Source of the DNA: Reichenbachiella faecimaris
GTDB lineage: Bacteria > Bacteroidota > Bacteroidia > Cytophagales > Cyclobacteriaceae
Length of the DNA: 64,000 nt
Direction of reading: 5' to 3'
Assembly (NCBI RefSeq): GCF_900176375.1
Contig: NZ_FWYF01000002.1
Coordinates: forward strand, 532,161-596,160
The translations under genes and the position numbers were made by a program. Position 1 is the stretch's first letter. The number at the start of each line of letters is the position of its first letter. This document shows, piece by piece, positions 20,618-28,895 of the stretch. Below the pieces are notes generated by a model. That model ran no database searches. It saw only the letters and a program-made list of their open reading frames with translations, and was not told the origin of the DNA.

Positions 20618-22438
20618 CTACTTTCCTATTTTCCATTCATCATCAGGTGTTCCGACGAAGCAATTTGGAGTTACTGGGAATTCGGCTGTAATCACATAAT
20701 AATAAGTGCCCTCAGGATATTCAGGTGTGATGCCTGTTCGTCCATTACACTCATCCAAGTCTCCAAGACCTGCTACATATTCAAAGTCCTGAATATAGGT
20801 GCCATCATGTGTTCCATCAGGATAGTCTTCTCCAGCTGTGCCAGTGCCCGTTCTAGATCCCGATTTCAGTTGATAGCTGGATTCCAGTTCCATAATTCCA
20901 CTGGTAGCATCTTCTGCATCAACGTATCCAAACTTGTAATATATCGGAAACCCATCTGCTGCGAACCCATAAATCAAGGAATGTCTGCTTCCATCTTCTT
21001 CATCTGCTAAGGCCACTATATCTCCATGATAATGATAGTTTCCGGCAGTGGTTACATGAGCACCATAGGCATCCAGATCAGTTTGATTTTCTTTATAAAC
21101 AGCAGATTGCCATTCCCAATTTTCCTCTTCTGTGTCTGGATGCGTCCATGGTTTCAATCCCATGGGGTGAAACTCCACACCATTCACAGCTACCCCAAAC
21201 TGATAGAATTTGTCGTTTGAAGGGGTGGGGCCTCCAGTTTCGTCATATACGTAAGTAATACTTCCAGCCTCAACTGGAGTCAAATCCAAATCATGTGTAG
21301 ATTCCATAGCTGTTGGAGTTCCATTCGGGAAATTTTCTACCGCATGGCTTGGGTACTGATTAGATGAAATAGTCCTGATATCACCGTCAATAGAAAAACA
21401 AACCTGACTTACGGTCGTACTCGTCGTTTCACAAGAGGTAGTAGAGCCTTCTTCTGCATCATACTGATGGTTGTAGACATGAGCACCTGTATAAGGAATC
21501 AGTTTGAAATAATAGGACATATCTGATTCCAGAATGGTAATATCTAACGAAGTGATAGATGTACCATTGTAGATCAATTGCTGACCCACTCCCTGGTAAG
21601 AAGTACTGGCGTCATCGTCATCCCCATCTGTCAAGTCAGTGAAACTATCCTCAGTATTAATTAAAATGGCATAACCTGACGCGTCCGTTACGGCTGCCCA
21701 AGAGTCTATGGTTAGTCCGTTTCCATCTTGGTTGCTAAATGCGAAATCAGCTGTAGTAGAAGTTGAGGCTTCATTGACAGTCACACTAAAAGTATCTGAG
21801 ACAGAAGCGTCACTTGGGTCTTTGGCTGTTACAGTTACTTCTGTTTCTCCTGTGCCCACTTCCGTAATGGTCAATGTCGTTCCAGATATACTGACCGTCA
21901 CAACAGCTTCATCAGCACTTACAGCATTTAAAATCAGCTCGTCACTATCAGCATCATCAAATACATTCATCAGCTCAACAGTAGCTGCACTAAAGCCTTC
22001 TGATAATGTTTGATCTGATATTTCATTCGTTACAGTCGGCGTGTTATTCGTATCTCCTTCTTCAGAAATTTTTAAGGTGAAAGAATCCGTTACACTCTTG
22101 CCTTCTTCATCTTCAGCTTTTACAGTAATATTTGTTGAGCCATTTCCTACTTCAGAAATTGTAAGTGTGGTACCTGCTATGGCAACAGTGGCAACCCCCT
22201 CATCGCTCGAAGTTGCACTTAATGTCAAGTCGTCTCCATCCGCATCTGCAAAAACATCTGAAAGCGCGACTGTTTCGCTACCAAAGCCAGAAGTCAAAGA
22301 CAAATCGGGAATAACATCCTCAATAGTAGGTGCATGGTTTTCGTCCTGAGCAGGCTCGTCCTCCGTACAGGCTAACATAATATTGAGTAGCAAAATCGCC
22401 ACCAAGGTTGATTTTAATTGATTTTTAATCTCTCTCAT
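20618..22438 (-). CDS. YHYH-domain lipoprotein with two Ig/cadherin-like repeats
   Basis: 606-residue lipoprotein: signal MREIKNQLKSTLVAILLLNIMLAC with Cys24 as lipidation site, followed by an acidic stretch (TEDEPAQDEN). Two cadherin/Ig-like repeats (about 38-125 and 133-223) share the pattern of pairs such as TLTISEVGNGSTNITVKA and TLTITEVGTGETEVTVTA. A further beta domain (about 225-330) precedes the C-terminal YHYH domain, named for its NYHYHG motif, with GFAADGFPIYY and NGRTGITPEYPEGTYYYVIT. YHYH proteins are secreted or surface proteins of unknown role, often near transport or copper genes. It is 2 bases downstream of a small exported protein gene. Confidence 0.88.
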   Translation of the reverse strand: MREIKNQLKSTLVAILLLNIMLACTEDEPAQDENHAPTIEDVIPDLSLTSGFGSETVALSDVFADADGDDLTLSATSSDEGVATVAIAGTTLTISEVGNGSTNITVKAEDEEGKSVTDSFTLKISEEGDTNNTPTVTNEISDQTLSEGFSAATVELMNVFDDADSDELILNAVSADEAVVTVSISGTTLTITEVGTGETEVTVTAKDPSDASVSDTFSVTVNEASTSTTADFAFSNQDGNGLTIDSWAAVTDASGYAILINTEDSFTDLTDGDDDDASTSYQGVGQQLIYNGTSITSLDITILESDMSYYFKLIPYTGAHVYNHQYDAEEGSTTSCETTSTTVSQVCFSIDGDIRTISSNQYPSHAVENFPNGTPTAMESTHDLDLTPVEAGSITYVYDETGGPTPSNDKFYQFGVAVNGVEFHPMGLKPWTHPDTEEENWEWQSAVYKENQTDLDAYGAHVTTAGNYHYHGDIVALADEEDGSRHSLIYGFAADGFPIYYKFGYVDAEDATSGIMELESSYQLKSGSRTGTGTAGEDYPDGTHDGTYIQDFEYVAGLGDLDECNGRTGITPEYPEGTYYYVITAEFPVTPNCFVGTPDDEWKIGK

Positions 22439-22440
22439 CG

Positions 22441-22914
22441 CTAGTATTTTATAGTTGTAGAGAATCTTTTCTTACTTAATCGAAATGACCTTCTTTTATC
22501 GTGAAAAGACGCTTTTATAATGTTTAATTGATTTTCTATGATTTCTAGGAGTACTGTGTTTTCGACCTGAATTTCAGAAATATTCTGAATGGGTATGTCA
22601 AGTTTTGCCATCACCACGATGACGTCATCTAGAAAAATAAATTCTTCGTAATCAAATGAAGCCTTAATCCCATTTATCGACAGACTCATGTGAGTATTTA
22701 AGTATTGTGAAAGTGCACAGTTCCAATCCTCTTTGGTGCTTCCTACGTCATTACCTACAGCTTCCACCAGATTGGCCTTGTCCAGCCGAATTTCCATGAA
22801 ATAGGCCTGGTCTTTTTCAAACAAGTCGAATAATCCAAAATTTAGGTCATGAGCTATTGCTGGCAGCCCACCATTCAATACAAGAAGTGAAAGCACTATA
22901 CATACCTTTTTCAT
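22441..22914 (-). CDS. Small exported protein (DUF6702-like)
   Basis: 157 residues; the ATG at 22914 gives a signal peptide (MKKVCIVLSLLVLNGGLPAIAH). The mature start HDLNFGLFDLFEKDQAYFMEIRLDK resembles the DUF6702-type exported beta proteins found beside YHYH and transport proteins in Bacteroidota. It ends only 2 bases before the YHYH lipoprotein start, so they form an operon. A distant look-alike with a similar layout is at 43967-44587. No active-site motif is seen. The family label is tentative. Confidence 0.6.
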   Translation of the reverse strand: MKKVCIVLSLLVLNGGLPAIAHDLNFGLFDLFEKDQAYFMEIRLDKANLVEAVGNDVGSTKEDWNCALSQYLNTHMSLSINGIKASFDYEEFIFLDDVIVVMAKLDIPIQNISEIQVENTVLLEIIENQLNIIKASFHDKRRSFRLSKKRFSTTIKY

Positions 22915-23108
22915 AGCAGATACAAAATTATTGATCTTCCAGGGATACAACGAGATCAAATAAACTTACCCTACTCATAAAATTTTTGAGTACATCATAT
23001 CAGCAATCCCGTTGGGTATTAAACTCGATTAATCAATTCGCAATTATTCTCACGTTCTGTTATCATTTCGTTAAAATATTAACCACACCCTTTGATTTTT
23101 GTCAACAA

Positions 23109-23141
23109 TTGGCTTAAATACAAATTTCCCGTTTATCTTTG
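23109..23141 (+). promoter_or_regulatory. Promoter of the sulfite reductase/siroheme operon
   Basis: TTG at 23109-23111 and TATCTTTG at 23134-23141 (exact TAnnTTTG), spacer 22 bases. The predicted transcript starts near 23148, giving a leader of about 245 bases before the sulfite reductase ATG. That is long for this organism and holds the leader ORF and terminator. The rest of the gap from 22915 to 23108 is AT-rich with no gene seen. Confidence 0.6.
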
Positions 23142-23192
23142 AACCCTGAATTATTAATCCTCGTTGAAGGAATCACTTCCCGACAAAACGAA

Positions 23193-23312
23193 ATGAACAA
23201 AACAACATTAAATAATATCTCAATAATGAACATCTGTTGGATGTGTTGTTGCTGTATGCTGTCATATAGCGGGAGATATACATTTAATGAATTATTGAAG
23301 GATAGAAGTTAA
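23193..23312 (+). CDS. Cysteine-rich leader peptide of the sulfite reductase operon
   Basis: A 39-codon ORF (ATG 23193, TAA 23310-23312) between the operon promoter and an intrinsic terminator. Codons 15-22 (23235-23258) read Cys-Trp-Met-Cys-Cys-Cys-Cys-Met, so five of eight are cysteine and two methionine, the sulfur amino acids made by the downstream pathway. The rest is unremarkable (MNKTTLNNISIMNI before, LSYSGRYTFNELLKDRS after). A second in-frame ATG at 23226 could also start it. By analogy with amino-acid-operon leader peptides, and with polycysteine leader ORFs described in mycobacteria, its role is to let ribosome stalling report cysteinyl-tRNA supply. The peptide itself need not be functional. 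No Shine-Dalgarno is visible, as usual in this phylum. Confidence 0.8.
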   Translation: MNKTTLNNISIMNICWMCCCCMLSYSGRYTFNELLKDRS

Positions 23313-23370
23313 TCAACATAACAATAAGACATTAAAAAGCCTCTCCCGAGAAATCAGGAGAGGCTTTTTT
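23270..23370 (+). promoter_or_regulatory. Transcription attenuator: antiterminator and terminator arms
   Basis: Terminator: GCCTCTCC (23339-23346) pairs with GGAGAGGC (23357-23364), extended by A/U pairs and followed by TTTTTT (23365-23370). Antiterminator: CGGGAGA (23270-23276), inside the leader ORF just past the Cys codons, is exactly complementary to TCTCCCG (23342-23348), which overlaps the terminator 5' arm. The two pairings exclude each other. A third stem, GCTGTAT (23251-23257) with ATATAGC (23264-23270), covers the last Cys codon and would be broken by a stalled ribosome. TCCCG at 23178-23182 could also mask CGGGA. Prediction: cysteine starvation gives read-through, sufficiency gives termination. 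Folding was done by eye. Confidence 0.75.
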
Positions 23371-23394
23371 ATTGGACTAAAATCAGAAAATACC

Positions 23395-25518
23395 ATGCAA
23401 AGTTTTAGATCAGAACTTGAAAATCTAGAAAATCCAGTTGTCCAAAAAGACATCATTGCCCTGGCAGACAAAATTCAAATTTTCCGAGAAGGGAAAATTG
23501 ATCCGGACAAATTCAGAAGCTTGAGGCTAGCCCGTGGAGTTTACGGTCAGCGTCAGCCAGGCAACCAGATGGTTCGTATCAAAATACCATTTGGCAAGAT
23601 GAGTGTAAAGCAGTTGAAAAGAATTGCAGATATCTCTAACGAATTCGGCGGTGGAAACCTACACGCCACTACTCGTCAAGACATTCAAGTACACTACGTA
23701 AGTCTGGATCGCACACCAGAGCTTTGGGCCAAGCTTGAGCAAGACGATATCACGCTGCGCGAAGCCTGTGGAAATACACTTAGAAATGTAACTGCCTCTC
23801 CTGTCGCTGGTATTGATAAAGATGAGCCATTTGATGTCTCTCCTTATGCGCACGCTTTATTCAAGTACTTCTTGAGAAATCCTGTTTGTCAGGAAATGGG
23901 ACGTAAGTTTAAAATTTCATTTTCATCAAGTGAAAAAGATACTGGGATTTCATTCATTCATGACATTGGGTTTATCCCTAAAGTGAAAACTGAAGGTGGC
24001 AAAGAAGTTCGTGGGTTTAAGGTCATGATTGGTGGTGGTCTAGGTGCACAGCCCGTGCCTGCTCAGAAAGCATACGACTTCCTGCCAGAAGATCAAATGA
24101 TTCCATTTGCTGAAGCTCTTTTACGAGTTTTCGATCGCTATGGCGAAAGAAAAAGAAGAATGAAAGCTCGTTTCAAATTCTTGATTACTGAAATCGGAAT
24201 TGACGAAGTGATGAGACTAGTGGAAGAAGAACGAAAGGCTTTGAGCACACAGTCTTATGTAGTTAAAAATCTTTTGGGTCAACCCAGATTGCCAGAGCAA
24301 TTAGTCTTTTCTGACAAAGCCATTAACGATCAGGAAAAATATGAGGCTTGGAGAAATACCAACGTTTGGGAACAGAAACAAGAGGGTTTTTATGCAGTCT
24401 CTATCAAATTACCAAATGGTGACATGAATTGGGAAAAAGCACATGCCTTTGGTGATGTGGTTTTGAAATATGCTGCAGATGACATTCGTGTAACTGTGAA
24501 TCAAGGGTATATCCTTCGATTCGTGAAAGAAGAAAGTTTGAAGTCGCTTTATGCTGAACTTGAAGCTTTGAACCTTGCTGATCCGGGCTTCAACAGCACA
24601 GCAGATATCATCGCTTGTGCGGGTACTGACACTTGTAACTTAGGTATCTCGAACAGTACCAGAGTGGCTTTGGAATTGGAAAATGTAATCGAACAGGAAT
24701 ACCCTGAGCTGATCAAAAACAATAACCTCCACATCAAAATCAGTGGATGTCCTAACTCTTGTGGTCAGCACGCCATTGCGTCCATTGGGTTTCATGGTTC
24801 GTCCTTGAGAAACAAAGTCAACAAAAAAACTGTCCCGGCCGTGCAAGTTTTGCTTGGAGGGGGATTGGGTAGTAATGGCGACGGTTTTATTGCCGAAAAG
24901 GTAATCAAAGTACCAAGTAAACGCACCCCAGACGTCCTTCGTGTTTTGTTCAATGACTATGAAGAAAACGCCAATGAAGGTGAGTACTACTATGACTACT
25001 TCAGAAGACAGGGCAAAGATTATTTCTATCAGCTGTTGAAATTCTTGGCCGACCTGGAAACGCTTAAACCAACAGATTATATTGACTGGGGCAAAGAAGA
25101 GCAGTTTGAAGTAGAGACTGAGGTTGGAGAATGTGCGGGTGTAATCATAGACTTGTTCTCTACCTTGATGCACGATGCGGAAGAAAAATTTGTCTGGGCG
25201 CAGGAAGCTTTTGAAGGAGGAAATATCGCCGATTCCATTTATCATACGTATAATGTATTTATCAATGCAGCAAAAGCTTTGTTGATTGACAAGGGCATTA
25301 CAGTGAATAATCAGGTAAGTGTGATGAACGCCTTTGAGGAAGAGTTTGGTCAGGATTTCAAGAGCCTGACTGGAGGAACATTCAAAGATTTTGTTTTAAA
25401 AATCAATCAAAACGAACCTTCTGAAGCTTTTGCTATCTCTTATAGAGAAGATGCGGCTAAGTTTTTGGAAAGAATAAAAGAAGTACAGAAAGACTTGTTG
25501 GTGGAAGAACCAGCATAA
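23395..25518 (+). CDS. Siroheme-dependent sulfite (or nitrite) reductase with C-terminal HEPN-like domain
   Basis: 707-residue ferredoxin-type reductase catalysing six-electron reduction of sulfite to sulfide (or nitrite to ammonia). It has the repeated ferredoxin-like half domains of the NirA/Sir family; the [4Fe-4S]-siroheme ligands are Cys408, Cys414 (CAGTDTC) and Cys452, Cys456 (SGCPNSCG). Residues about 570-707 form an extra helical region (MHDAEEKFVWAQEAF, YHTYNVFINAAKALLID) that resembles a HEPN fold and is absent from plain Sir proteins. It is followed by siroheme-synthesis genes and preceded by a Cys-codon attenuator, which favours sulfite over nitrite as substrate. No sulfate activation genes are in the window. 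Confidence 0.85.
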   Translation: MQSFRSELENLENPVVQKDIIALADKIQIFREGKIDPDKFRSLRLARGVYGQRQPGNQMVRIKIPFGKMSVKQLKRIADISNEFGGGNLHATTRQDIQVHYVSLDRTPELWAKLEQDDITLREACGNTLRNVTASPVAGIDKDEPFDVSPYAHALFKYFLRNPVCQEMGRKFKISFSSSEKDTGISFIHDIGFIPKVKTEGGKEVRGFKVMIGGGLGAQPVPAQKAYDFLPEDQMIPFAEALLRVFDRYGERKRRMKARFKFLITEIGIDEVMRLVEEERKALSTQSYVVKNLLGQPRLPEQLVFSDKAINDQEKYEAWRNTNVWEQKQEGFYAVSIKLPNGDMNWEKAHAFGDVVLKYAADDIRVTVNQGYILRFVKEESLKSLYAELEALNLADPGFNSTADIIACAGTDTCNLGISNSTRVALELENVIEQEYPELIKNNNLHIKISGCPNSCGQHAIASIGFHGSSLRNKVNKKTVPAVQVLLGGGLGSNGDGFIAEKVIKVPSKRTPDVLRVLFNDYEENANEGEYYYDYFRRQGKDYFYQLLKFLADLETLKPTDYIDWGKEEQFEVETEVGECAGVIIDLFSTLMHDAEEKFVWAQEAFEGGNIADSIYHTYNVFINAAKALLIDKGITVNNQVSVMNAFEEEFGQDFKSLTGGTFKDFVLKINQNEPSEAFAISYREDAAKFLERIKEVQKDLLVEEPA

Positions 25519-25520
25519 CT

Positions 25521-25571
25521 AGAATCAAGATATAAGAGCCAAGAGTCAAGATTTTTTTGGTTCTTGATTCT
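25521..25571. repeat. Heptad-repeat hairpin between sulfite reductase and SUMT genes
   Basis: AGAATCAAGA (25521-25530) is exactly complementary to TCTTGATTCT (25562-25571). Between them are related decamers AGAGCCAAGA (25535-25544) and AGAGTCAAGA (25542-25551) at 7-base spacing, then a run of seven T. It could pause or partly terminate transcription inside the operon, or be a slippage-born intergenic repeat. Confidence 0.55.
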
Positions 25572-25592
25572 CAAAATCTAAAAAGTAATAAA

Positions 25593-26363
25593 ATGAAAAA
25601 TCTAAAAGCTCCTAAATTAACCTTGGTGGGTGCAGGTCCGGGCGATCCGGATTTGATCACCCTTAAAGGCATCAAAGCTTTGAAAGTTGCCGACGTCGTG
25701 TTGTACGACGCATTGGCTAATGAGGAGCTTTTAGATTTTTGTTCTCATGGCACGAAGAAAATTTTTGTGGGTAAACGAGCTGGATTACACCATTATCAGC
25801 AGCATGTCATCAATCAGATGATTGTAGATCATGCGATGCAATATGGGCATGTGGTGAGACTCAAAGGTGGCGACCCCTATGTGTTTGGTAGGGGACATGA
25901 AGAGCTAGAATATGCCGAAAAGCATGGATTGTTAGTTGACTTAGTACCTGGTGTGACCAGTGCCATTTCTGTCCCAGCATTAAACCAAATTCCTTTGACT
26001 CGTAGAGGTATCAACGAAAGTTTTTGGGTGTTGACTGGCACCACAAAAAGTGGCCAACTATCCTCAGACATACAGCACGCAGCTAAATCATCTGCTACTA
26101 GCGTGATTCTCATGGGGGTGAAAAAACTGCCTGAAATCTTGGCCATTTATTCCAAAAGCGGAAAGACAGAAACGCCTGCGGCTATCATCCAGAATGGTTC
26201 TAGACCAGAAGAAAAAATCGTGATTGGAAATGTAAGCAACCTAGAAGAATTGGCATTAAAAAATAATATCGGCTCTCCTGCTATTATAGTCATTGGAGAA
26301 ACTGTAGCTTTAGGTAAGGAAAAACTAAACAGCACCCTGGATAAAATCGTTTTATCCAAATAA
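25593..26363 (+). CDS. cobA: Uroporphyrinogen-III C-methyltransferase (SUMT)
   Basis: SAM-dependent methylation of uroporphyrinogen III at C2 and C7 to precorrin-2, the entry to siroheme. 256 residues from the ATG at 25593. Signature motifs: LVGAGPGDPDLITLKG (about 10-25), VVRLKGGDPYVFGRGHEEL (about 88-106) and PGVTSAISVPA. It is a stand-alone SUMT rather than a CysG fusion; the other siroheme steps are supplied by the next gene. Its place between sulfite reductase and the Met8-like gene shows it makes siroheme for that reductase, not cobalamin. Confidence 0.93.
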   Translation: MKNLKAPKLTLVGAGPGDPDLITLKGIKALKVADVVLYDALANEELLDFCSHGTKKIFVGKRAGLHHYQQHVINQMIVDHAMQYGHVVRLKGGDPYVFGRGHEELEYAEKHGLLVDLVPGVTSAISVPALNQIPLTRRGINESFWVLTGTTKSGQLSSDIQHAAKSSATSVILMGVKKLPEILAIYSKSGKTETPAAIIQNGSRPEEKIVIGNVSNLEELALKNNIGSPAIIVIGETVALGKEKLNSTLDKIVLSK

Positions 26364-26375
26364 ACTCCCAAAACC

Positions 26376-26966
26376 ATGAAATCGCTCAAAAACGGTAATA
26401 ATCTTTTTCCAGTGTTTTTTAAACTTGAGCAACTCCATTTACTTATTGTAGGTGGTGGCAACGTGGGATTGGAAAAATTGACCTCCGTGCTGACCAACAG
26501 CCCTTCTACCAGCATTCGGCTGGTTGCGAAAGAAATCAGTGACGAAGTTCGAGACTTTGTCAAAGATCATCCCAACGTGAAACTGATTGAAAGAGAATTC
26601 AGGCCTTATGATCTGGAGGATATCGAATTGGTCATAGTGGGAATAGACGATACACGAACAAGTGAATTGATCAGAGACATGGCCAAAGTGCGTGGTTTAT
26701 TAGTGAATGTAGCAGACAAACCAGAGCTATGTGACTTCTACTTAGGTTCAGTAGTGAAAAAAGGTGATCTAAAAATCGCCATCTCTACCAATGGCAAATC
26801 GCCTACTGTAGCCAAGCGCATCAAAGAATACCTCAACGAATCCATTCCAGAATCCATCGACGAAGTGTTGCAAAACATGAACAAAATTCGAGAAAAACTC
26901 CACGGCAATTTTGATTTCAAAGTGCGCACGCTGAATAGTATTACCAAAGATTGGTTGAAGAAGTAA
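26376..26966 (+). CDS. Precorrin-2 dehydrogenase/sirohydrochlorin ferrochelatase (Met8/CysG-B type)
   Basis: 196-residue enzyme that oxidises precorrin-2 with NAD+ and inserts Fe2+ to give siroheme. The N-terminal Rossmann motif is LLIVGGGNVGLEKL (about 24-37), followed by NVADKPELCDFYLGSVVKKGDLKIAISTNGKSP, the characteristic CysG-B/Met8 region with the conserved Asp and Cys, and a helical dimerisation tail. It is the third gene of the operon (12 bases after cobA) and completes siroheme synthesis for the sulfite reductase. Confidence 0.9.
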   Translation: MKSLKNGNNLFPVFFKLEQLHLLIVGGGNVGLEKLTSVLTNSPSTSIRLVAKEISDEVRDFVKDHPNVKLIEREFRPYDLEDIELVIVGIDDTRTSELIRDMAKVRGLLVNVADKPELCDFYLGSVVKKGDLKIAISTNGKSPTVAKRIKEYLNESIPESIDEVLQNMNKIREKLHGNFDFKVRTLNSITKDWLKK

Positions 26967-27008
26967 CTCAGCTCACCTAAGCGATTGGTTCAAGTAACTT
27001 CCCCATTT

Positions 27009-28895
27009 TTATTTTCTACGCTTCAACAAAAGATCACCATCCAAAGAAGTGGCTTTTAGGGTATCATTGATATCCTCAAGTTGTAAATGGTTGATAATGA
27101 ATTTTAGTTTAAATTCATTAGACGACGCTTCCAAAGTCATATTCGAAGGATCAAGGTTCGTCTCAGAAACTTTTCCATGGGTTTGTATTAACTCACCTAT
27201 TTTCTCAGTAAACGCAAAGTCAATAGTATCATTCTGGCCTATAAAAAAGAGACCTAGGGAATTACCACTGTTTAGCAAAATCTGGCATGAAGATTCGTCA
27301 ATGGTTATTGCACGTATAGCTTCTTTACCCTGATAATTGTACAAATTAACCCGTGTCAGGTAGTCAAACTCATCCAAAGCCATTACATCTGTGGTTTCAA
27401 TCGAATAGCCAAAATAAGCATCAGAACTGTTGATATATTTATAACTGTAGCTTAGCCCCATCGATCGCATATAAATTTCAGCTTCGTTTCTATATTTGTT
27501 GGAGTCCAGAGAGAGCACGATGAGCGAATCCAAATTTTGCTGATAAATGGGTCGGATACTGGCTAATCCATGATAATCGTCGAGATAGTTTACAATAGAA
27601 TAGACTTCATTGTGCAGAGAGTCTGACAGCACGCCTTTATTCGTGCCCTCTTTTTTTGAATAGAACCAATTAGGCAAACTGTCTGCTTCCCAAACCACTT
27701 CGTTGACGACCTTTCCGTCTTTCAATAAATGGTTGTCATTCAAAATCGTAACGAGTCTTTTCGCTTGACTTTTTTCGCTAATGATAAACATGCCCCAAGG
27801 CCCAAAAGACATTAAGCCTAGTGTGACGGCAAGAGACATAGGAATGAACTTGATGTTTGTTCTGCCAACGGTGAAATAAGTCGCAACTATGGCTAACCAA
27901 ATACCAAGCAGCACAATCACGTATCTATTGATCGTAATTCCATAATCTGAGATTCGCATGGCAATGGCGAAAAAGAGTAGCGCTATCAGTGGAAACAATA
28001 GCAAATAAAACGCACTTGTAGACTTCTTTATCCAGCCATTTTCCTTCAGTTCTCCATACGGGTAGAATAAAAGTACTGTGAGAATACCCAATACGGAAAC
28101 ACATGAAATCAAGTAAGAAACTATGCCCTTGGGCCAATCCCAAAAGATGGTAATTTTAGACCCATAGGCGTATAAAATAATCAGATAAAGAACCAAAAGA
28201 GGAAGTAAAACATACTGCGCAAATACTTTGAGCCCATTGGGATACTCTCGCTCATTATCCAATACTTCCAAGTCAGACGGAATTCCAGACAAGAAAAACC
28301 AAGTATTAAAAAGACCAATAATTACAATGAACAATTCAAAATATAGCTCATCATGAATCTCAATATCAAACAAGAGCTTTAACGCTGTAAGGGCTAGAAC
28401 TAAACCTACATATAAGAATCCTGAATATAATATGGATGTCAATATCCGAATGAACAAGGTCTTGTTAAAGTTCCAAAAGCCATTCAGTTTTTTGCCATTG
28501 ACATAGGGACTAAATGATACCAGGAGGTGAACTATGATGTTGAATATCCCATACCTGATGTATGGAATGGAGGTATTGTGGGTATGTTCGGCATTAGGCA
28601 ATGACAAATAGATTCCCAGTAGTATGAAACCCGCCACAATATGTGCACCTATCTTAAAAGACGAATCAATCCCTTTTTTAGAGCTGATGATCGAAACACA
28701 GAAAAACAAAGGAATACCCAGTGCAAATGTGATCAAGCCATTGATGAATGGGAAGTAATTGGATATTTCATCCTCATATTCAACCAGATATATAGAAAGA
28801 CAAACAGCACACAGTGCACTCAATAGGGTTATTGGGAATCTCAATAAGGATCCTTTAGCTGAACGGAACAGGTAATTGATTGAAGCTAGATTCAT
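27009..28895 (-). CDS. DUF4153 multi-pass membrane protein
   Basis: 628 residues. Residues 1-390 are a string of about 10-12 hydrophobic helices with the DUF4153 pattern (FWNFNKTLFIRILTSILYSGFLYVGL, NGLKVFAQYVLLPLLVLYLIIL). The remaining roughly 230 residues are a soluble, probably extracytoplasmic domain. The family has no known function and is widespread in Bacteroidota and Firmicutes. It converges on the siroheme operon with a 42-base gap that holds no clear terminator. Confidence 0.85.
   Translation of the reverse strand: MNLASINYLFRSAKGSLLRFPITLLSALCAVCLSIYLVEYEDEISNYFPFINGLITFALGIPLFFCVSIISSKKGIDSSFKIGAHIVAGFILLGIYLSLPNAEHTHNTSIPYIRYGIFNIIVHLLVSFSPYVNGKKLNGFWNFNKTLFIRILTSILYSGFLYVGLVLALTALKLLFDIEIHDELYFELFIVIIGLFNTWFFLSGIPSDLEVLDNEREYPNGLKVFAQYVLLPLLVLYLIILYAYGSKITIFWDWPKGIVSYLISCVSVLGILTVLLFYPYGELKENGWIKKSTSAFYLLLFPLIALLFFAIAMRISDYGITINRYVIVLLGIWLAIVATYFTVGRTNIKFIPMSLAVTLGLMSFGPWGMFIISEKSQAKRLVTILNDNHLLKDGKVVNEVVWEADSLPNWFYSKKEGTNKGVLSDSLHNEVYSIVNYLDDYHGLASIRPIYQQNLDSLIVLSLDSNKYRNEAEIYMRSMGLSYSYKYINSSDAYFGYSIETTDVMALDEFDYLTRVNLYNYQGKEAIRAITIDESSCQILLNSGNSLGLFFIGQNDTIDFAFTEKIGELIQTHGKVSETNLDPSNMTLEASSNEFKLKFIINHLQLEDINDTLKATSLDGDLLLKRRK

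Follow-up and report, generated by a model that had tools for sequence, protein, structure and literature searches.

The sulfite reductase gene sir of Reichenbachiella faecimaris is preceded by a leader which we read as a ribosome-mediated transcription attenuator that senses the charging of tRNA-Cys and thereby gates sir (probability about 0.87). Such a leader would very probably switch on sir and the siroheme genes behind it only when cysteine is short. A cysteine-codon attenuator had already been proposed for this site in a sequence-only reading of the window, i.e. the whole 64,000 nt stretch of DNA that was analysed, and the conservation of the Cys codons together with the co-variation of antiterminator and terminator supports that proposal. 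Judged by sequence comparison, the element is not confined to this organism and also occurs in Cytophagales relatives, in Pedobacter and in other members of the class. For a considerable share of the Bacteroidota it offers a testable mechanism by which cysteine could control sulfite reduction and the supply of siroheme. If true, transcription and translation in these bacteria must be coupled so tightly that a ribosome on the leader can steer RNA polymerase.

Results and discussion

Organization of the sir locus

The elements of the leader and the genes behind it are as follows:

23134..23141, plus strand: putative -7 promoter box TATCTTTG, Bacteroidota-type, kept in 8/8 genus loci
23193..23312, plus strand: leader ORF of 39 codons, ATG at 23193, TAA at 23310-23312, Cys at codons 15 and 18-21
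23206..23221, plus strand: segment 1 (protector), pairs with 23273-23289 in the ribosome-free minimum-energy fold
23244..23255, plus strand: regulatory codons Cys18-21 (TGT TGT TGC TGT)
23270..23289, plus strand: segment 2, composed of CGGGAGA and ATTTAATG; its partner is segment 1 or, alternatively, segment 3 together with the flank
23330..23348, plus strand: segment 3, made up of the flank CATTAAA, which enters the inner antiterminator helix, and of TCTCCCG from the 5' arm of the terminator
23339..23370, plus strand: intrinsic terminator formed by segments 3 and 4 and followed by six T, from direct reading and fold
23395..25518, plus strand: sir, sulfite/nitrite reductase-type, 707 aa (Pfam NIR_SIR and NIR_SIR_ferr)
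25593..26363, plus strand: cobA, uroporphyrinogen-III methyltransferase-type (Pfam TP_methylase; the listed ORF starts at TTG 25557)
26376..26966, plus strand: met8, siroheme synthase-type (Pfam NAD_binding_7 and Sirohm_synth_M)

The start codon of sir at 23395 lies 24 bases 3' of the T-run of the terminator, a distance claimed before and borne out by direct reading. The gene order sir-cobA-met8 is kept in 8/8 genus loci and the three genes are presumably co-transcribed. The sir product carries a C-terminal HEPN-like region, which at 20.9 bits scores below the cut-off of 22. The upstream neighbour, a DUF6702 gene, is located on the minus strand; the terminator in the sir leader is therefore not its 3' end.

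From the promoter boxes described in the sequence-only reading the -7 box was retained, which we named by what we take to be the Bacteroidota -7 consensus; a -33 element at constant spacing was not evident among the 8 genus loci. Only one of these, L083, departs from TATCTTTG by a single base (TATATTTG). Transcription is expected to start near 23148. Generic scans of 22900-27200 returned three terminator-like sites where 3.1 were expected, which is not informative, and promoter-like sites no more often than expected by chance. The scan reported the sir terminator hairpin on the minus strand only, because the T-run of the plus strand was counted in the stem.

The leader ORF and its Cys codons

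The leader ORF encodes the peptide MNKTTLNNISIMNICWMCCCCMLSYSGRYTFNELLKDRS, and direct reading of codons 15-22 gives C W M C C C C M, so that the ORF noted before agrees with the DNA base for base. Clustered codons for the amino acid of the controlled pathway in a short leader ORF are characteristic of an attenuator. A Cys-run ORF is present at the corresponding place in 8/8 distinct genus loci, which include Reichenbachiella versicolor and R. agariperforans, and the Cys codons are kept in all eight; a lack of conservation, which would have spoken against the attenuator, was thus not observed. The 12 bases of Cys18-21 are identical in 7/7 aligned genus sequences, and the run is shorter in L084 than in the other genus loci. 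The codons 5' of the Cys run show a pN/pS of 0.88 (7 sequences), i.e. no constraint on the peptide outside the Cys codons in this genus.

Predicted mutually exclusive pairings

Between the leader ORF and sir the terminator consists of the arms GCCTCTCC (23339-23346) and GGAGAGGC (23357-23364), followed by six T at 23365-23370. CGGGAGA at 23270-23276 is complementary to TCTCCCG at 23342-23348, and for both elements the coordinates given earlier were correct. The antiterminator proposed from this 7-bp pairing stands but was incomplete: a second, inner helix (23283-23289/23330-23336) has to be added, as has the protector strand at 23206-23221, which had not been mentioned. Outer and inner antiterminator helices were found in 8/8 genus loci, each folded individually. 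This predicted antiterminator excludes the terminator and lies just 3' of where the ribosome would stall, an arrangement that is weaker in Pedobacter. Its pairing begins 14 nt past the last Cys codon, beyond the edge expected from the footprint of a stalled ribosome, which agrees with the suggestion that a ribosome stalled there leaves CGGGAGA free. According to the modelled folds, the leader has the classical four-segment architecture of attenuators, with an upstream strand competing for segment 2. In the window fold the Cys codons lie between two small hairpins (23228-23268), which might, judged by eye, pause RNA polymerase; comparable hairpins with different sequences are readable by eye in genus loci, where they were left uncounted.

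A fold of -57.5 kcal/mol was obtained for the window leader (z -4.2), and 0/200 shuffled sequences were equally stable. During synthesis of the RNA the pairing 1:2 forms at the beginning, then 2:3, and finally 1:2 together with 3:4. Segment 1 holds segment 2 until about 23342, and once segment 3 has emerged 2:3 is briefly favoured at equilibrium. In the full RNA, 1:2 plus terminator reaches -57.4 kcal/mol versus -43.1 for the antiterminator. When the 5' part was left out to mimic a stalled ribosome, 2:3 reached -16.2 kcal/mol while segment 4 was still untranscribed; for the full-length RNA in the stalled state, the values were -27.2 kcal/mol for the terminator and -19.6 for the antiterminator. 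Because the terminator stays more stable even here, antitermination by 2:3 must act in time, i.e. kinetically.

Occlusion of the terminator arm was calculated by two models. One removes all RNA 5' of the ribosome and in this way partly builds in its result; the figures given here come from the other, which keeps this RNA and is negative for the window alone. Across 61 loci the occlusion was higher with the ribosome stalled than at the stop codon in 35 and lower in 11 (p = 2e-5), and for the window it was 0.66 in both states. The earlier suggestion to fold the leader and compare the competing structures thus had a mixed outcome: both form in the nascent RNA, but in the window equilibrium folding fails to separate stall from stop, even though the protector pairing 1:2 is present in the fold. 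Since occlusion at the stop codon equals that at the stall, the off state in the window would have to come from a 1:2 helix formed beforehand or from the ribosome as it moves.

The mechanism that we propose runs as follows. With cysteine plentiful, the ribosome would clear the Cys codons, and segment 2 would be either bound to segment 1 or disrupted as the ribosome moves on; this would let the terminator form, and transcription would end ahead of sir. With Cys-tRNA scarce, the ribosome would stall at Cys18-21 with its leading edge just 5' of 23270, and segment 2 would be free to pair with segment 3 and its flank once these are transcribed, allowing RNA polymerase to continue into sir, cobA and met8. 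Translation of the leader ORF, stalling on it and a kinetic preference for 1:2 after release are what we infer for this scheme.

Occurrence of the leader upstream of sir

We collected 185 regions of 330 nt upstream of sir from 48 loci on named genome contigs and from genomes of the order, genus and family, the latter mostly with one genome per genus plus closer genomes for family and order. Dropping 2 duplicates left 183 distinct regions; the upstream sequences of L084 and L003 are identical, as are those of L086 and L004, the latter from R. agariperforans DSM 26134. A joint call required a Cys-run ORF and a terminator 20-190 nt downstream of it. This combination was found in 61/183 regions (8 from the genus, 19 from Pedobacter, 34 others), in none of 20 dinucleotide-shuffled sets, in 0/183 on the reverse strand and upstream of other genes in 1/510. 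Counted as negative were seven loci with Cys-rich ORFs that missed the joint call (L053, L055, L124, L164, L176, L187, L189), four of the 23 Pedobacter loci (L007, L009, L016, L017) and all five loci from outside the Bacteroidota (L045-L049). ORFs of <=70 codons with >=4 Cys within 9 codons occur in 37/183 regions versus 0.6 expected from shuffles. In the same scan for clustered codons the next amino acids by z were Val (12 versus 2.1 expected) and Tyr (7 versus 1.6), and the Val clusters probably are Cys codons read in a shifted frame.

A class-level sample yielded the leader in 6/29 further sir loci. Altogether it was found at 67/168 sir genes without a close upstream gene versus 0/44 with one (Fisher p = 7e-9); thus the leader goes with sir genes that stand first in a transcription unit of their own, and the remaining 101/168 have no called leader. 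Also the genes behind differ, as cobA is located 3' of sir in 43/45 leader-bearing loci versus 33/89 others.

A search for a second Cys leader in the window's own genome gave 37 TGYTGYTGYTGY sites, of which 30 were read as loci, and the combination of ORF and terminator was seen only at sir. Likewise, neither of the two PAPS_reduct loci of this genome has a Cys leader within 1.5 kb. In 12 leaderless genomes searched within about 7-8 kb upstream of sir, the only long Cys run was that of L203, without a called terminator; there (L203:6134-6257, genome G235) a short ORF ending in NINCCCCCCCG is separated by about 480 nt from a 394-codon ORF, which in turn lies 5' of sir. The same search gave a single weak call of ORF plus terminator in L195 and another in L199, both of which were taken as chance. 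In a Gemmatimonadales MAG (L046:4601-4741) a terminator comes directly after a short ORF with MIYMVKRCCCRCCL, and a sulfite reductase-like ORF lies downstream of both; from its sequence this single case is possibly a Cys attenuator in another phylum.

Co-variation of antiterminator and terminator

When the segment 3' of the last Cys codon was paired with the terminator 5' arm of its own locus, the mean score over the 61 loci was 15.7, against 11.8 for shuffles. The pairing fell below p 0.05 in 24/61 loci; the other 37, among them 17/19 from Pedobacter, were not better than shuffles at this level. Over 31 distinct arms, own arms scored 16.4 and swapped ones 12.5 (p = 1e-4), with the own arm ranked first in 11/31, including the window (rank 1 of 31). 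Among the 24 loci with p < 0.05, 20 have the start of this pairing 8-19 nt past their last Cys codon. Different sequences fill the same role in the window and in its relatives, namely CGCAGAGG/CCTCTGCG in L126, ACCAGGGG/CCCCTGGT in L136, CACCAGG/CCTGGTG in L142 and GGAAAGGC/GCCTTTCC in L113, and therefore antiterminator and terminator co-vary. An absence of such co-variation had been named beforehand as an outcome against the attenuator, and the comparison of own with swapped arms argues for the contrary. The 1:2 duplexes, too, are more stable in their own than in swapped combinations (p = 2e-4, 61 loci), with only 15/61 beating shuffles at 0.05.

These tests of own against swapped partners were used because the MAFFT alignment of the genus sets segment 2 off by about two columns and RNAalifold on this alignment gives a weak consensus, at least partly due to misalignment (-1.7 kcal/mol, no covariation credit).

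Sister leaders with a conserved peptide

Seventeen distinct leaders of the order, from three families, share the motif N-x-K-x-x-A-[AS]-x-R-[CR]-A-C-W-[FY]-W-C-C:

motif-sharing sir leaders: L052, L053, L094, L096, L102, L104, L106, L108, L111, L113, L119, L150, L154, L157, L166, L167, L176

Synonymous sites vary freely in this group; the conserved R, for instance, is coded as CGT, CGC, CGA, AGA or AGG. As the DNA pattern used to collect these leaders fixes W[FY]WCC, pN/pS was taken from the four codons R[CR]AC unfixed by the pattern, where it is 0.10, versus 0.93 in the 10 codons after CC. W[FY]WCC also turns up independently of the pattern: of the 34 positives that belong neither to the genus nor to Pedobacter, 15 contain it. 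This conservation looks like selection on a nascent peptide that ends at the stall site, as far as codon comparison can tell, and such selection N-terminal to the stall site is seen in the RCACWFWCC group and not in the window genus. The DNA pattern for CWFWCC/CWYWCC occurs at 16 sites in 14 of 395 genomes of the class; none of these has a terminator, so we regard them as chance.

We tentatively suggest, at somewhat less than even odds, that the sir leaders of Bacteroidota form one family in which plain Cys-run sensors stand beside arrest-peptide sensors stalling at Cys-Cys, both gating a similar terminator. If true, these leaders would include a new arrest peptide linked to the supply of cysteine, and an evolutionary step between codon and peptide sensing would become visible; the subgroup with the conserved peptide would allow both ways of sensing to be compared on one gene.

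Alternative explanations

The sister group bears also on the window itself, where a Cys-rich nascent peptide could arrest the ribosome, either unaided or together with a ligand (cysteine, sulfide or a metal, for example), and operate the same RNA switch. The conserved peptide ending at Cys-Cys, with its low pN/pS before and high value after CC, speaks for such an arrest, but the unconstrained codons before the Cys run in the window genus do not, and many other leaders have just a simple run of Cys (CCCCCCCC in L136, CCCACCCC in L116), so that we consider it unlikely here. Clearly less probable still is a metabolite riboswitch or T-box with an incidental ORF. A structured 5' region and a terminator do precede a biosynthetic operon, but Rfam gave no match at gathering score, be it to a T-box, a SAM riboswitch or another family, in the window at 22400-27200 (the best was Phe_leader with 28 of 55 bits) or in 8 relatives, and what the loci share is the Cys run, set in differing RNA sequences.

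Cys-rich peptides can bind metals, and the leader peptide might be a functional microprotein, for example for metal or sulfur binding, which shares the sir transcript while the terminator sets a fixed ratio. However, leader length, C-terminus and non-Cys residues vary widely, four leader peptides compared with Pfam and NCBIfam had no match above cut-off, and it would be left unexplained why the terminator co-varies with the segment 3' of the Cys codons; this explanation is very improbable. Least of all do we believe in a random Cys-run ORF beside an unrelated terminator: the sites in the generic scans did match chance expectation, but recurrence, position and co-variation lie far above the controls. 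Attenuation by a ribosome that stalls on Cys codons remains the reading that we prefer.

Comparison with known attenuators

In the attenuators of the trp, his and leu type, a ribosome translating a leader peptide decides between termination and read-through. The sir leader resembles them in its leader ORF with a run of codons for the end product, its mutually exclusive pairings and a terminator before the first gene, but differs in using Cys codons, in controlling sulfite reductase and siroheme synthesis and in its Bacteroidota host. From the passages of the source cited, the mycobacterial ilvB1 leader is another ribosome-mediated transcription attenuator (PMC13236596). Leader regulation in Bacteroidota is represented by the Bacteroid-trp motif RF01692, which as outlined in its source concerns Trp instead (PMC2864571), and by unspecific signs of leader-peptide attenuation at amino-acid genes of Flavobacterium psychrophilum, for which the portion cited names no cysteine operon (PMC9723704). 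The literature searched, mostly open-access, contained no cysteine attenuator from Bacteroidota, in line with the sequence-only reading, which knew of no description in this phylum; in view of this coverage an earlier description is possible.

Polycysteine leader ORFs of mycobacteria were reportedly described by Canestrari in 2020. In the part of the literature cited here, the mycobacterial polycysteine leaders are described as translation attenuation (PMC13236596), and for the cys operons of Actinobacteria Cys leader peptides are given, with no conserved terminators reported in the sections cited (PMC1262725). The motif uORFC-8-2, which precedes cysS in Rhodobacterales, was predicted, according to the excerpt cited, to be an attenuator; it combines Cys codons in tandem with an intrinsic terminator as the sir leader does, but it is alphaproteobacterial, has two Cys codons and lies before a cysteinyl-tRNA synthetase (PMC8632094), whereas the gene downstream in the window is a sulfite reductase. 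With the leaders of Actinobacteria and mycobacteria, as far as their sources are cited here, the sir leaders have in common short Cys-run ORFs before sulfur assimilation genes; unlike these, the sir leaders of Bacteroidota have terminators, and these co-vary with the segment 3' of the Cys codons. The kind of regulator is thus already known, with Cys leaders described in Actinobacteria and predicted in Rhodobacterales, and, judged by the literature searched, its occurrence at sir in Bacteroidota appears to be new.
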